Shown: piece by piece, positions 2,888 to 58,068 of the stretch
Layout of the letters: each line of letters begins with the position of its first letter
Position numbering within the stretch: position 1 is the stretch's first letter
Source of the DNA: Ramlibacter algicola
GTDB taxonomy: Bacteria; Pseudomonadota; Gammaproteobacteria; Burkholderiales; Burkholderiaceae_C
Reading direction: 5' to 3'
DNA: 64,000 bases
Assembly (NCBI RefSeq): GCF_016641735.1
Contig: NZ_JAEDAO010000001.1
Location: 2,976,001-3,040,000, forward strand
Translations under genes and position numbers: made by a program
Notes under the pieces: generated by a model
Databases searched by the model: none
The model's input: only the letters and a program-made list of their open reading frames with translations
Told to the model about the DNA's origin: nothing

Positions 2888-3616
2888 ATGAACCCGCACG
2901 GCACCGTGACGACCGAGGCCTCCCCGCCGGCCGTGCGCATCAGCTCGGGCGGGATGAAAATGCTGATCGCAGCATTCGGCGCAATAGCTCTGCTCCCCCT
3001 TCTAAATTTTTCTGTGCTTGCGTGGAACAGCCTTACTCTCGATATGCGCGCATATGCGGAGCCCGTGGTTCTCGGCCAGATGGGAGACTTCTTTGGCGGG
3101 CACACGGCAGCATTTTCCGGACTGTTGTCAGTTGCTCTGGTCCTGTACTTCCAGCGCGCCCAGCTTGAAGCAACGCAGAGATCATCAGACCTACAGTCGA
3201 TCCTCACCATCTACCAGCACTACGGCCAAACCTGCGGCGTCGGACGTGACTTCGAAGACATCTTGAAATCTGTCGCTGAAGGGCACAGGCGATGGAGCAT
3301 TCGTGAGTCATTCAGCTTGATAGACGCTCGTTCTGCCCTCGAAAAGCATCGACAAAACCAAGTGAAAGCTGAATTCCAGGATCTCGTACAACGCTGTGCG
3401 CGAATCGATCTGGACGTAGAAAGCTACAGAAATATCGCCCGAAATGCAGGATCGTTGCTGCTCGACAAACGGCTGGACTCTGCAAAGAGGCAAGCGATTT
3501 GGCAGCTCTATGAACTACTCAGAGAGGCCCCGGTACAGTTGCTCGCGCAGTCCGGAACGCTACATGAGCGATTCCGAGCTGAACGCCTGCGCTTCGCAGC
3601 AGAACACGCACACTGA
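2888..3616 (+). CDS. Two-helix membrane protein resembling AbiC-type abortive-infection proteins
   Basis: 242 residues, no confident family assignment. There are two membrane spans: residues 25-47 and 63-86. The second follows a GDFFGG motif (residues 66-71) and runs straight into a soluble helical stretch starting YFQRAQLEATQRSS. The order (helix, short outside loop with GDFFGG, helix, coiled-coil-like arm, long helical cytosolic domain) is what I know from putative phage abortive-infection proteins of the putAbiC kind. That is a resemblance, not an alignment. AGAGG sits just before the ATG at 2888. A second ATG at 2954 coincides with the point where GC drops, so the true start may be there. 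Convergent with the ATPase gene, 19 bases apart. Confidence 0.6.
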   Translation: MNPHGTVTTEASPPAVRISSGGMKMLIAAFGAIALLPLLNFSVLAWNSLTLDMRAYAEPVVLGQMGDFFGGHTAAFSGLLSVALVLYFQRAQLEATQRSSDLQSILTIYQHYGQTCGVGRDFEDILKSVAEGHRRWSIRESFSLIDARSALEKHRQNQVKAEFQDLVQRCARIDLDVESYRNIARNAGSLLLDKRLDSAKRQAIWQLYELLREAPVQLLAQSGTLHERFRAERLRFAAEHAH

Positions 3617-3635
3617 CCAGCTCTAACGGTAGAAG

Positions 3636-5981
3636 TCAGAACAGAGAGCGCGACGGATTCTTCGTTTGGATTCCTAGGGCGGGCACAAACGCTGGATTAA
3701 TGCAGTACTGAATGTCCGCCCCCTTCCTCCTGCGCACACCAGCCAGGATTTTCATCTCATAGTTCACGTCGTAGATGTAAGTCGACTTGTCGGCGTCTTG
3801 GAGAATTCCAAGAAATCCATACCAGAGCAACATTTCGATCACTCGCTCGCGCGAAGCTTCAGCGATTCCCGCGTCATTCAATGCGCCGAGTAGATCTGAC
3901 TCCCCAAAGAGACTCGGATATCCAATGAAAGAGTAGATGACATTCTCCGCCTGTGGATCGATGTCATGCATCTCATATTGCAAGTCCGAGATCAGGTCAT
4001 TGGAGTAGTTCTTGAGGCCCTTTTCAAGGTCGCTCTCTTGGATGCGCTCATGGCCCAAGTTGCACGCGGAACTCTTGCAGTACGAAACCAAGTCAATCAG
4101 GAATCGAGGCCGCATTAGGCAGCGCTCGATCAGGTATTGAGAGGTTTCCTCGCCACGATAGTGACTTACCGCGATCCTTGACCAAACCTCGTCAAAGGAA
4201 CTGTTCTCATTAAGCTTGCCCGCAGCAACGATACGAAGCCGCAGCAACTCGCGAAGTAGGTCAGCGTCAGTCCAGTCCACCTTAACAGCCGCCTCTTTGC
4301 CCTTGTCGGACGTCGACCGGACCAAGAGTTCGTACACATCGTTCCTCAAGAACAATATCGAGTGCGCGTGCACCTGCTGTCGGGACAAGCGCTGCTGCAG
4401 CTTTCTGCAAGCATCAACAAGACATCGAACGATCGTCAGATCAGTCTTGTCCAGCCCGTCTGTACTCCATCCTTTGTCCAGATTATCGAAGAGGACCCAA
4501 ACTTCTTCTTTGTGCTGAAGGTACTCAAGAATCTTCGCGGCCAACTTCCCCACAGCGCTGCGATAGATCGTCTCCGTTACTTCTTCTTCACTTAGTGTGA
4601 CGTCGACCTTGCCCTCCAGACGAGGGTTGTACGCATCAACGAGCCTATTCACCAGGGAGGCCACACGATCCGCGAAGCTTCCAGCCAACGAAATCCCGGC
4701 CTCCGATATCAGAGCTTCCAGCTCGCGATACGGTTCGAAGAGATGATGGTCTCGGAGATGACGATCTCTGTCCGTACTCAGAACGTGTGCCGCTATCTCT
4801 ACGAGAAGAACGTACTCCCAGAACGCCATAATGGTGTGCTCACGCGCGCCCTCAGTGAGAGATGACAGCACCGCTTGCTTGAGCTTGATCAGCTGGGAGG
4901 TCTCAGGCTTAAGGTCGATGACGATGTCGTTCTTCCTCTTCGCCAGCACCTCGATCAGCTGAAAAAATAGTGCGGACTTCCCCGAGCCCTTTCGACCGAC
5001 GACAACATGCGCCTCGCCGCGAAGAGCCTGGTTGAAGGCATCGATTGGGAGGTAGTACTCCGTTAACGCAGATGCCTCGTTTTCCGCAGCATTTGCTCCC
5101 AAGGACAGGGATGCGAGGAAGTTTTTAGTGTGCGAGGGCTCCTTCTGCCTTGTGGCTTGTATCGCAGCCATGACATTGGAAACAAAGGCTGCAACGGCCT
5201 TCCGAAGCTCGTCGCTGTTCGGACACGGTTGCACGATGTCTCGATAGTCGAGTGGGACTGGTTGTTCGATGGCATCTTGCAGGATTGCAAGAGGCTTCTT
5301 CATGCCAGAAGCTAGGCCGGCCACAAATGCCGCTCGCATGTTGTGGAGCGAGTGATCCGCTAACGTCCTACTCAGCAACGGAACAAGGACCCCATACGAC
5401 TGAGCGACTTGCTCGATCGCCTCCCAGGACGACAGCCGCGGCCGCTCCTGCGGATCGAAGGTACGTGTGGACATCCTTGCCCGTTCGAGCCGCGAGCGAA
5501 TCCCAATGATGTAATCCGTCTTGTGCTTAGGCTCGATGGCATAGATCGGAGCACTGAGGTTCAGCGCGGGCGCGATGAGGAGCGGACGGGCTACCTCGGA
5601 ATTCGCCTGGATCGTCTTCTGCAGGGTCTCAGCATTTTCGTACTCAGTGAAACCGATCGTGTCGAAGAGTCCGATCTCCTGCAGCTTCAGTGGCCCCTCG
5701 TCGATAGCGCGGTTCTTGACTAGCAAGATTGGCTTGCCGCATCCAATCGCATATCCGATCTCGAAACTCACATTGAAGTTTGCGATCGAAATGTCCGCAA
5801 TAAACAGGTCGCTGTCCTCAATAGAGTTTAGTACCTGATTGCGAATGAAGTTCCCTGCGACTTCTAGCTCTTGCCACGGTGTGACTTTGAGCGAGGCAGA
5901 GCGTAGTCTTGCGCTCGCAGCTACGATCACATCGCCTATTTGCACGGGCCGCCCTGTGTAAGCGAAGAAAAACTTCCGCAT
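3636..5981 (-). CDS. Tandem TIR/deoxyribosyltransferase-like domains fused to a P-loop ATPase
   Basis: 781 residues. Residues 1-135 form a Rossmann-like nucleotide-hydrolase domain with SDLFIADISIANFNVSFEIG (57-76), the pattern of nucleoside 2-deoxyribosyltransferase/TIR-like enzymes; E74 is the expected catalytic acid. Residues 145-275 look like a second, degenerate copy in which the matching block reads NMRAAFVAGLASGMKKPLAI without that Glu. Then comes a P-loop ATPase with Walker A GRKGSGKS (329-336), Walker B VWVLFDNLD (494-502) and SILFLRNDVYELL (541-553), like the Sll1717-type family. The last 110 residues may be winged-helix. GGGGAGG precedes the ATG. It lies 24 bases downstream of the aminotransferase gene on the same strand but has far lower GC, so it is probably acquired. 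A defence role (NAD+ or nucleotide depletion) is inference. Confidence 0.7.
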   Translation of the reverse strand: MRKFFFAYTGRPVQIGDVIVAASARLRSASLKVTPWQELEVAGNFIRNQVLNSIEDSDLFIADISIANFNVSFEIGYAIGCGKPILLVKNRAIDEGPLKLQEIGLFDTIGFTEYENAETLQKTIQANSEVARPLLIAPALNLSAPIYAIEPKHKTDYIIGIRSRLERARMSTRTFDPQERPRLSSWEAIEQVAQSYGVLVPLLSRTLADHSLHNMRAAFVAGLASGMKKPLAILQDAIEQPVPLDYRDIVQPCPNSDELRKAVAAFVSNVMAAIQATRQKEPSHTKNFLASLSLGANAAENEASALTEYYLPIDAFNQALRGEAHVVVGRKGSGKSALFFQLIEVLAKRKNDIVIDLKPETSQLIKLKQAVLSSLTEGAREHTIMAFWEYVLLVEIAAHVLSTDRDRHLRDHHLFEPYRELEALISEAGISLAGSFADRVASLVNRLVDAYNPRLEGKVDVTLSEEEVTETIYRSAVGKLAAKILEYLQHKEEVWVLFDNLDKGWSTDGLDKTDLTIVRCLVDACRKLQQRLSRQQVHAHSILFLRNDVYELLVRSTSDKGKEAAVKVDWTDADLLRELLRLRIVAAGKLNENSSFDEVWSRIAVSHYRGEETSQYLIERCLMRPRFLIDLVSYCKSSACNLGHERIQESDLEKGLKNYSNDLISDLQYEMHDIDPQAENVIYSFIGYPSLFGESDLLGALNDAGIAEASRERVIEMLLWYGFLGILQDADKSTYIYDVNYEMKILAGVRRRKGADIQYCINPAFVPALGIQTKNPSRSLF

Positions 5982-6005
5982 AGCTACCTCCCCTGATTGG
6001 CGAGC

Positions 6006-7205
6006 TCAGATCGCACGCGCTAGTCGCACGATTCCTTCCTCAATCTTCCCAACATCCGCCGTCGCAAACGACAGCCGAAAGGCTGATCGATCCGGATCCT
6101 TGGCAAAAAACGGCGCCCCCGGCACAAACGCCACCCCGTTCTCGATCGCCCGTTTGGCGAACTCCCCCGCATCCGAGATCTTCCCGCCGACCCCTCTCAG
6201 GCGCGCCCAGAAGAACAACCCGCCCTGCGGCTGCGTGAAGGTGACCGCGTCGCCCAGTTCGCGAGACAACGCCTCGCCCATCGCCGCAGCCCGCTCCGCA
6301 TAGACCTTGCGGACATTGGCCAACGTCGAAGGCATCCGCCCCGACTTCAAATACTGCGCCGCCGTCGCCTGCGCGAACGTGCTGGTGTGCGCGTCGCTGA
6401 ACTGCTTGCACATCGTCGCCTTGGCCAGCAACTCGGGCGGCGCCACCAGCCAGCCCACGCGCAGGCCGGGCGACAGCACCTTGCTCAGGCTGCCGCAGTG
6501 CGCCAGGTACTCGCGCGAGCCGGGCACGTCCTTCGACAGCGCCAGCAGCGATGGCGGCGGCGGCTCCTGGGTGAAGTACAGGTCGCCATAGGGATCGTCC
6601 TCGACGATCAAGGTCTGGTACTTCACGGCCAGTTCCAGCACGCGCTTGCGCCGCTCCAGCGACAGCAGCGCGCCGCTCGGGTTGCCGAAGGTGGGGATCA
6701 GGTAGACGAACCTGGGCTTGTGCTCGCGGATCATGGCCTCGAGCCGGTCCACGTCCACGCCGTGCGCGTCGATCGGGCACGACTGCACGTCGGCGCCGTA
6801 CAGGCGGAAGCACTGGATCGTGGCCAGGAAGGTCGGGCCTTCGACGATCACCTTGTCGCCCTCGCCCACCAGTGTCTTGCCCAGCAGGTCCAGCGCCTGC
6901 TGGCTGCCGGTGGTGACGATCAGCTGCTGCGGCTCCAGGCCGTCGACGCCCTTGCTGCGCTCGAACGCGGCCAGTTGCGTGCGCAGCGGCTCGTAGCCTT
7001 CGGTGGCGCCGTACTGCAGCGCGCCGCCGGGCTCCTCGGCCAGCGCCTTCTGGCTCGCTTCGCGCAGCCCTTCGACGTCGAACATCGCGCTGTCGGGGAA
7101 GCCGCCGGCGAAGCTGATGATGCCGGGCTTGCCCAGCAGCTTGAACAGCTCACGGATGGCACTGGTTTCGACGTTGTCGAGGCGGGGGGCGAAGGTCAGG
7201 GGCAT
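6006..7205 (-). CDS. PLP-dependent class I/II aminotransferase (2-aminoadipate/LysN-MocR-like)
   Basis: A 399-residue cytosolic aminotransferase of fold type I. The PLP lysine is K242 in GSLSKVLSPGLRVGW. The cofactor-binding D-P-Y is at 204-206 (VEDDPYGDLY), and N175-P-S-G lies in PTFGNPSGAL. The family includes 2-aminoadipate, valine-pyruvate and aromatic aminotransferases; the sequence does not single one out. The start is set at 7205 (MPLTFAPRLDNVETSAIREL) because that matches the family N-terminus, although the frame stays open further upstream. The ATPase gene follows 24 bases after its stop, which marks the right edge of the low-GC island. Confidence 0.85.
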   Translation of the reverse strand: MPLTFAPRLDNVETSAIRELFKLLGKPGIISFAGGFPDSAMFDVEGLREASQKALAEEPGGALQYGATEGYEPLRTQLAAFERSKGVDGLEPQQLIVTTGSQQALDLLGKTLVGEGDKVIVEGPTFLATIQCFRLYGADVQSCPIDAHGVDVDRLEAMIREHKPRFVYLIPTFGNPSGALLSLERRKRVLELAVKYQTLIVEDDPYGDLYFTQEPPPPSLLALSKDVPGSREYLAHCGSLSKVLSPGLRVGWLVAPPELLAKATMCKQFSDAHTSTFAQATAAQYLKSGRMPSTLANVRKVYAERAAAMGEALSRELGDAVTFTQPQGGLFFWARLRGVGGKISDAGEFAKRAIENGVAFVPGAPFFAKDPDRSAFRLSFATADVGKIEEGIVRLARAI

Positions 7206-7338
7206 GACAGGGTCTGGATACGTTTGGGTGCCATTGTGGCCGCACGCCGGGTTGCCCTTCCAGCGGGGCACCCCCACCTGCCCTCCCTGTCGCCGCCTTC
7301 GCACATGGGGCGGCCCGATCATTGCTTGCAAGGACCTG

Positions 7339-8447: not shown

Positions 8448-8620
8448 TGTCATTGCGGGCTTGACCCGCAATCCACGCGAAGGGGTGACGCCCCGCATGG
8501 ATTCCGACTTTCGCCGGAATGACAACCGATCCGTCGTCCCCGCGGAGGCGGGGACCCACCGCGTTCATCGAGGCGCAGGCAGCGGAAGCGGTGGATTCCC
8601 GCCTTCGCGGGAATGACGAA
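8448..8620. repeat. Family-A composite repeat cluster
   Basis: Three linked units: TCATTGCGGGCTTGACCCGC; ATTCCGACTTTCGCCGGAAT; then a CCCCGCGGAGGCGGGG hairpin paired about 50 bases on with TTCCCGCCTTCGCGGGAA. It fills the gap between two convergent genes (the esterase and the YflT-domain gene). Possible transcription stop or mRNA 3' structure. Confidence 0.85.
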
Positions 8621-57742: not shown

Positions 57743-57793
57743 GCCGGCTTCCCCGCCGGCAATGGGCACCATGGCCGCGCGCAGGGCGCGGCC
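57743..57793 (-). terminator. Hairpins between the cobalamin riboswitch and btuB
   Basis: Two stems: GGCCGCGC/GCGCGGCC (57773-57793) and GCCGGC-TTCCCC-GCCGGC (57743-57760), the latter followed in the btuB direction by a short T-containing stretch and then the ribosome site. They suit an expression platform (terminator or ribosome-site sequester) responding to B12. Confidence 0.5.
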
Positions 57794-57797
57794 GCCT

Positions 57798-57995
57798 CGT
57801 TGGCCGGTATCCGGGCTGGCGGTTCGCCTCCATCGCCTTCCCGGCACGCGGTGACGCGCGACGCCAGTGGCTTGTCTGATGGGACGGGGCGCCCTCGTGG
57901 GCACCCGACCGCTTACCGTTGCGGGGGCAGCGCAGGTTGGCTTTCGTGCGCGATGTGGCACTGGGCTCCCTGCTTCCCGTTGAACTGCGGCATGC
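57798..57995 (-). promoter_or_regulatory. Cobalamin riboswitch
   Basis: On the minus strand the order is GGGAAGCAGGGAGCCCAGTG, AAGCCAACCTGCGCTGCCCC, CGCAACGGTAAGC (57911-57923 on plus), then the B12 box AGCCACTGG (57863-57871), GGGAAGGCG (57834-57842), GCCAGCCCGGATACCGGCC (about 57802-57820). These match the conserved core of AdoCbl riboswitches. It precedes btuB and should shut the operon off when B12 is plentiful. Confidence 0.93.
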
Positions 57996-58068
57996 GAACC
58001 ACACCGCGAGCACCAACCAGGTGATTCTAGATGCAACAGCGCACCCGAACCCTACAATGGTCCCACCT

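Follow-up and report, generated by a model that had tools for sequence, protein, structure and literature searches.

The 64,000-nucleotide stretch of the Ramlibacter algicola genome analysed here (the window) carries an island of low GC content that follows immediately on the stop codon of a gene for a pyridoxal phosphate (PLP)-dependent aminotransferase (amt). The island consists of two convergent genes, termed S and L. The site behind amt appears to be a defence hotspot of the genus Ramlibacter, and this site, rather than a two-gene system, is our main result. The S/L island is best explained as cargo of this hotspot, with L and S as independent genes and L as an abortive-infection sensor, a reading to which we assign a probability of roughly 0.6. 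The main features are as follows (positions in the window; ORF, open reading frame; GC3, GC content at third codon positions; AF2, AlphaFold2).

2954..3616, plus strand: gene S, an ORF with an alternative start at 2888
3636..5981, minus strand: gene L, an ORF with an NF047389 match, homologues, an AF2 model, and fold matches
5589..5981, minus strand: DNPH1/NDT-like domain of L (residues 1-131), from alignment, profile and fold matches
4974..4997, minus strand: Walker A of L, GRKGSGKS (residues 329-336), from alignment
4482..4496, minus strand: Walker B of L, VLFDN (residues 496-500), from alignment
6006..7253, minus strand: amt, the conserved landmark, present in 49/59 Ramlibacter genomes and named after its Ramlibacter relatives
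6006..6095, minus strand: last ~30 codons of amt, unusual in codon use (GC3 of 0.57 over the final 40 codons versus 0.90 in the preceding 100)

The 49 genomes with amt comprise the window's own, 47 fetched genomes, and G021. Five loci are unreadable, four of them ending at most 15 bp from the gene or inside it (L118, L120, L122, L125) and one 300 bp from it (L093), which leaves 44 readable genomes; 11 of these carry a low-GC island at or just behind the amt stop codon. By a median rule, the first 500 bp past the stop lie more than 9 points below the local median in 8 of 41 loci, compared with none of 33-39 in each of four bins before amt and none of 31-34 per bin beyond 7.5 kb; this set leaves out the five unreadable loci, L123, L124, and G021. 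An absolute rule (below 58% GC) picks out 9/41 loci downstream and 1/46 upstream of amt, G023 (L115) being below the limit on both sides, while nth, the one control gene for this contrast, gives 0/29 downstream and 0/29 upstream (30 loci of 57 matches). The 11 islands are those of the median-rule list together with G416 (L092), which this rule misses since the short locus itself sets the median but which the absolute rule counts, and with G013 and G432, both of which have a broken amt frame. G420 (L113) is flagged by the median rule, yet is not below 58%. G023 was left uncounted, and G021, which has no low-GC island behind amt, raises the readable total to 44. Two loci with accessory genes were also left uncounted. 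In G005 (59-62% GC), TumE and YhcG-type genes follow a gene end rich in G, and in G004 a PDC-S37/Hhe-type helicase lies at a distance of 2.5 kb.

The ten other islands hold varied cargo, and nine of them contain a PADLOC match, three of these being partial or generic.

G416: AAA_13 protein (PDC-S06) and DUF2130
G417: metallophosphoesterase protein (PDC-S60/CBASS-type Effector)
G425: PDC-M31A/B
G415: an RdrA-like and an RdrB-like protein, both matched in part (66 and 103 bits), and an OLD/GajA/HEC-01A-like ATPase (RADAR-like)
G015: D12 methylase and metallophosphoesterase
G418: two ThsB proteins (Thoeris), SLOG LD_cluster3, Nmad2, MazG_C, and a UDG-like protein
G437: AAA_21 ATPase, AriA/PtuA-like
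G420: Mrr
G013: UG9 reverse transcriptase (split in two ORFs) and PolA (DRT9)
G432: nothing known

The site thus combines a conserved flank with varied defence cargo, and this company supports the defence role that an earlier note on the same DNA, made from the letters alone, had proposed for the island. Among 27 cargo proteins, including L and S, the sole resemblance is between two ATPases of different islands (29% over 134 residues). No recombinase or transposase appeared in a Pfam scan of 25 proteins from these islands, and among the integrase matches listed none lies on the contig of amt at 50 kb or less from the gene. The right flank, amt, is fixed; a close homologue of the left neighbour (E ≤ 1e-100) exists in 8/59 genomes and was not found beside amt in the loci compared. 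For 41 genomes, nine of them carriers, an amt tree that leaves off the final 45 columns requires 7 changes (8.3 in shuffles), which points to repeated gains (or losses) of islands. The G418 island (L104, 8568-13926) is an unusual Thoeris-like, nucleotide-modification-linked set whose two ThsB-type proteins are TIR proteins, and the G432 island (L124, 3488-8255) comprises ~5 kb of low GC with several ORFs behind an amt whose frame is broken in the assembly.

Core defence hotspots as such have been described before (PMC10250203, PMC10121019). Like cDHS1 and cDHS2 of Pseudomonas aeruginosa (PMC10250203), the site behind amt has a conserved core flank and low-GC, variable anti-phage cargo, often with no detectable mobile gene. 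Unlike at these two sites, the amt flank is protein-coding and its last codons are atypical, the window holds no tRNA or tmRNA, the modules are small (~1-7.5 kb), and the pattern spans species of one genus. In the open-licence papers searched, no description of Ramlibacter phage defence or of an aminotransferase hotspot site was found.

The low GC content of the S/L island, which the earlier note had placed at 2945..6000, is evident on the scale of the whole element. Positions 2957-5981 have a GC of 0.540, whereas 3025-bp windows taken to the right in 100-bp steps average 0.699 (sd 0.013, minimum 0.665). The three counts made by hand for that note are reproduced (0.467, 0.533, 0.633). The limits themselves shift, with the left onset near 2954-2970 and, on the right, low GC continuing beyond 6000 into the final ~90 bp of amt (60-bp windows with starts as far as 6060 give 0.55-0.60). 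S and L are near-equal in GC (0.540 and 0.541) and unrelated to each other. As the note had also stated, they are convergent with 19 bp between them and unlike their neighbours, which we read as ABC-transporter genes on the left (from ORFs) and the aminotransferase on the right. L starts 24 bp past the amt stop on the same strand. The proposed recent acquisition of the island is supported. The repeats found comprise four direct families of two short copies each and three inverted pairs (78-93%), none of them at both borders; the nearest border repeat is an imperfect 23-nt pair (78%, 2930-2952 and 6418-6440), whose right copy lies 400 bp inside amt. A promoter search gave 0 hits versus 1.3 expected.

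L comprises 781 residues in the order DNPH1/TIR-like N-terminus, second Rossmann-like unit, ORC/Cdc6-type STAND ATPase, and winged-helix end (AF2 model, pLDDT 80). Residues 294-769 match NF047389 (P-loop ATPase, Sll1717 family) with 334.8 bits against a curated cut-off of 75, which makes L a member of this family and bears out the Sll1717-type ATPase suspected earlier; 1737 homologues are found at E ≤ 0.001. The fold as well as Walker A and Walker B identify a STAND or ORC/Cdc6-type AAA+ ATPase. Within residues 1-131, N68, N70, V71, E74, and Y77 are invariant, E74 in 28/28 relatives. This part resembles DNPH1 in Foldseek (TMt 0.62-0.71, best E 5.8e-3) and matches a DNPH1-like profile with the glutamate aligned (E 7.8e-5). 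The PADLOC TIR effector profile scores 14.9 bits (E 0.0022). No SIR2 family is listed for L at E ≤ 1 among the Pfam, PADLOC, and NCBIfam profiles, and the EfAvs5 structure (rank 40) aligns over residues 290-770 alone. The label "undescribed", given to the system before, applies in part: the ATPase already has an NCBIfam name, whereas the open-licence papers searched yielded none containing the word Sll1717. A distant Sll1717-type ATPase (25% identity across L residues 294-685) is encoded on the F plasmid (NC_002483; L040, 3968-6064) as a hypothetical protein of ~698 residues adjoining Tn3-family transposition genes, and like proteins occur on many plasmids.

Retron-Eco1 reportedly forms filaments that hydrolyse NAD+. 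DrHyd (DNPH1/NDT) domains have a proposed NADase role in immunity (PMC9503650), DUF4062 of Swarozyc is a TIR-like domain with a conserved glutamate (PMC13174449), and STAND ATPases act by trigger-induced oligomerisation (PMC7159879). Like Avs5 (SIR2-STAND) and the TIR-NLR RPP1 (PDB), L appears to join an NAD-type enzyme domain, at its N-terminus, to a STAND ATPase and, like Swarozyc (PMC13174449), to have a probable TIR-like domain with a conserved glutamate. It departs from these three in that its enzyme domain is DNPH1-like, a second Rossmann-like unit is present, the ATPase is of the ORC/Cdc6 type, and no sensor repeats come after the winged helix. The enzyme domain further belongs to the superfamily of DrHyd/NDT effectors such as that of Retron-Eco1, with a proposed NADase role (PMC9503650 for DrHyd); unlike Retron-Eco1, the S/L island has no reverse transcriptase, and the enzyme domain of L is fused to the ATPase. 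The ATPase region of L (residues 298-666) is also distantly related to DS-41 of DefensePredictor (PMC13092281), but its 27.9 bits fall far short of the DS-41 (NF053860) cut-off of 370, which indicates a different system; DS-41 was thus rejected as a name for L.

We read the modelled domain architecture of L as that of a one-protein, NLR-like sensor with putative NADase activity. Because DrHyd domains are proposed or known immune NADases and STAND ATPases oligomerise on a trigger, we infer a one-protein abortive-infection switch. Different species would gain different, mostly anti-phage, low-GC modules separately behind the amt stop codon. In the case of L, the STAND ATPase would be held off with nucleotide bound, until a phage product triggers its oligomerisation. 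The clustered DNPH1/TIR-like N-termini, with glutamate 74, could then cleave NAD+ or another nucleotide and halt the cell. We put the NADase step itself at even odds.

S comprises ~220 residues. The start at 2954 agrees with its homologues, and that at 2888 (242 residues) is possible. Two predicted membrane helices are followed by a helical part, and the AF2 model is all-helical (pLDDT 82). All 18 homologues (41-49% identity, BLAST) are annotated merely as "hypothetical protein", and the hairpin GDFFGGHTAA is invariant in 19/19 family members. A Pfam scan of S and its 18 homologues gave no family above cut-off, and neither a PDB sequence search (best E 0.096) nor a fold search with the model (best E 0.78) gave a convincing match. 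Of the AbiC-type two-helix membrane protein proposed from the letters, the two predicted helices hold, whereas family membership finds no support at Pfam level. Like putAbiC (PF16872), S has a short membrane hairpin with a G-GD-FG-type turn; unlike putAbiC, S and its homologues lack a Pfam match and the C-terminal part of S remains unaligned. PF16872 (cut-off 22) has no match at E ≤ 1 for S, none among the 19 family members, and none in this genome (G000), while hhalign of the S family against one PF16872-positive putAbiC protein (L129) aligned the hairpin alone (probability 62, E 7e-5, 65 columns). Membership of S in Pfam putAbiC was therefore rejected. When genome contigs were scanned with the alignment of the S family, two S-like loci came up, and the plasmid records searched with S gave none. 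Three shorter S-like proteins (L003-L005) share mainly the N-terminal part of S. That of L005 (1-1886), at the end of this locus, adjoins a phage integrase on a viral contig, a site typical of accessory phage genes. By analogy, S is most likely a separate membrane-anchored protein of the abortive-infection type; our guess is that the hairpin would either disturb the membrane or anchor the helical domain.

The distribution of both genes bears on whether they act together. Across 369 genomes of the class, full-length L occurs in four (G000, G151, G385, G396) and full-length S in G000 alone; the three other genomes with full-length L lack full-length S, G151 having a 23-bit partial S match on a different contig from L. 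Across 399 genomes of the order, L (E ≤ 1e-50) and full-length S are each confined to G000, with two partial S matches elsewhere. A search among relatives found L in 2/41 genomes, the window's own included. In the other one, G014, L (42% identity) is again of low GC (0.50 versus 0.70-0.73 in the flanks) and again lies directly behind the end of a housekeeping-like gene. There (L028, 7901-8010), it starts 22 bp past the stop of a GlnRS-like gene, so named by sequence reading. A profile search (E ≤ 10) detected no S match around L in 18 kb of G014, two viral-contig loci, and six plasmid loci, the latter being 6 of 13 plasmid records with an L coverage of at least 80%. Conversely, no L match lies beside the S-like proteins of L003-L005 in the stretches examined, L005 starting at a contig end. 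The phage records searched with L gave none, a first scan of genome contigs with L alone found nothing, and the L of a Rhodococcus plasmid is split into two ORFs.

The 3' end of amt is itself atypical. Over the final 25 codons, six carriers (G415, G416, G417, G418, G420, G425) agree at fourfold sites with an identity of 0.94, compared with 0.53-0.69 in the four preceding windows and 0.53 in the last window of the non-carriers; further upstream, the identity among the six ranges from 0.59 to 0.90. The share of C-ending codons in the last 25 is 0.07 in 9 carriers versus 0.36 in 32 others (Mann-Whitney p 3e-5), whereas further upstream the two groups do not differ (p 0.21); these statistics ignore relatedness, and five of the six carriers fall in one amt clade. 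The amt end of this genome shares its start with the six and then differs, its third positions also being A/T-rich. A 45-bp end sequence (≤ 3 mismatches) is found at amt 3' ends alone, in 10/58 genomes; of these, G426 and G021 lack a low-GC island, and the contig of G434 ends. Low GC3 at the amt end is also seen in three non-carriers, L088, L085, and L102. From these codon patterns, the last ~30 codons of amt were probably exchanged together with the island. The pattern fits exchange of a unit including the gene end without proving it, and relatedness may explain part of it. Such exchange may have proceeded either by homologous recombination or by a recombinase that was later lost.

Alternatively, a site-specific integrative element using the gene end as attachment site could account for both the low-GC islands and the atypical amt end. 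The high end identity among the six carriers and the confinement of the 45-bp sequence to amt 3' ends would be expected of such an element, but identity upstream in the same six reaches 0.90, and their shared clade may contribute. Moreover, no clear repeat joins the island ends: at this locus there is the imperfect 23-nt pair, and a search for the gene-end repeat at the far end of eight islands gave nothing beyond chance 11-mers in two. Neither a recombinase among the 25 scanned island proteins nor a tRNA in the window was found, and we regard this origin as possible, yet rather unlikely. Somewhat more speculative, and doubtful at present, is the proposal that the amt end is a recombinase-free landing site, where the exchanged unit includes the last ~25-40 codons and the module rewrites the C-terminus in frame, and that L represents a new, minimal NLR type, with twin DrHyd-like domains on an ORC/Cdc6-type STAND and no sensor repeats.

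The earlier note had read S and L as one defence pair. In such a system, S would be the membrane partner or effector and L the enzyme and switch. The adjacency of the genes, their shared low GC, and their common rarity in the order agree with this idea, but convergent transcription argues against an operon, three genomes carry L without full-length S, and neither gene was detected near the other at the G014, viral, plasmid, and L003-L005 loci. The comparison covers loci outside the closest relatives, which stand at 64-74% for L and at 41-49% for S. Since no second locus with both genes is among those examined, one conserved two-gene system was rejected, S and L are better seen as independent modules, and the pair is improbable. 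DNPH1-like enzymes sanitise nucleotides in other organisms, and the island might accordingly be neutral or metabolic foreign DNA, with L acting on nucleotides as a housekeeping enzyme. Against this speak the fusion of L to a STAND ATPase, its patchy distribution (1/399 in the order and 2/41 relatives, own genome counted in both), its occurrence in mobile contexts, and the PADLOC-matched cargo in 9/10 other carriers of the same site, which together make this reading improbable as well.

Several observations weigh against S/L as hotspot cargo with L as a sensor. The genus sample holds one genome per species and is partly draft, and a precise empty site for the S/L island was not found. Regarding the cargo, the match of the G417 protein is confined to the phosphoesterase domain (residues 7-269 of 1108), the G015 methylase could belong to ordinary restriction-modification, the G437 ATPase matches are generic, and four proteins of the G432 island match nothing in Pfam and PADLOC. 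L scores 25.3 bits for PF05014 (Nuc_deoxyrib_tr, residues 41-91) against a gathering cut-off of 28.8. A precomputed table assigns this family to the same protein (P0020), and the TIR/deoxyribosyltransferase-like N-terminus claimed before holds for fold and conserved glutamate, but not at the Pfam cut-off. The position of DNPH1 aspartate 80 is apparently valine in L from the alignment. Further, L has no strong PADLOC match (best PDC-M28C, 31.5 bits, in the ATPase part), no repeat region after its winged helix, and a score far below the cut-off for DS-41.

Elsewhere in the window, a cobalamin riboswitch lies at 57785-58032 on the minus strand. Near 8500, 16900, 22400, and 30500, ORF translations recurrently hold the strings SFPRRRES and DSRLRGNDE, which suggests a repeated intergenic element.

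With regard to Ramlibacter biology, low-GC genes directly behind amt are likely defence genes, and cargo without a PADLOC match becomes a set of defence candidates, namely the ~5-kb island of G432, L, S, and the DUF2130 protein of G416. The atypical amt end raises the question of how modules without a detected recombinase reach one fixed spot. Through L, the NLR-like NADase sensors would come to include a large family, the 1737 homologues of L, which is named, yet without a paper under Sll1717 in the open-licence literature searched.

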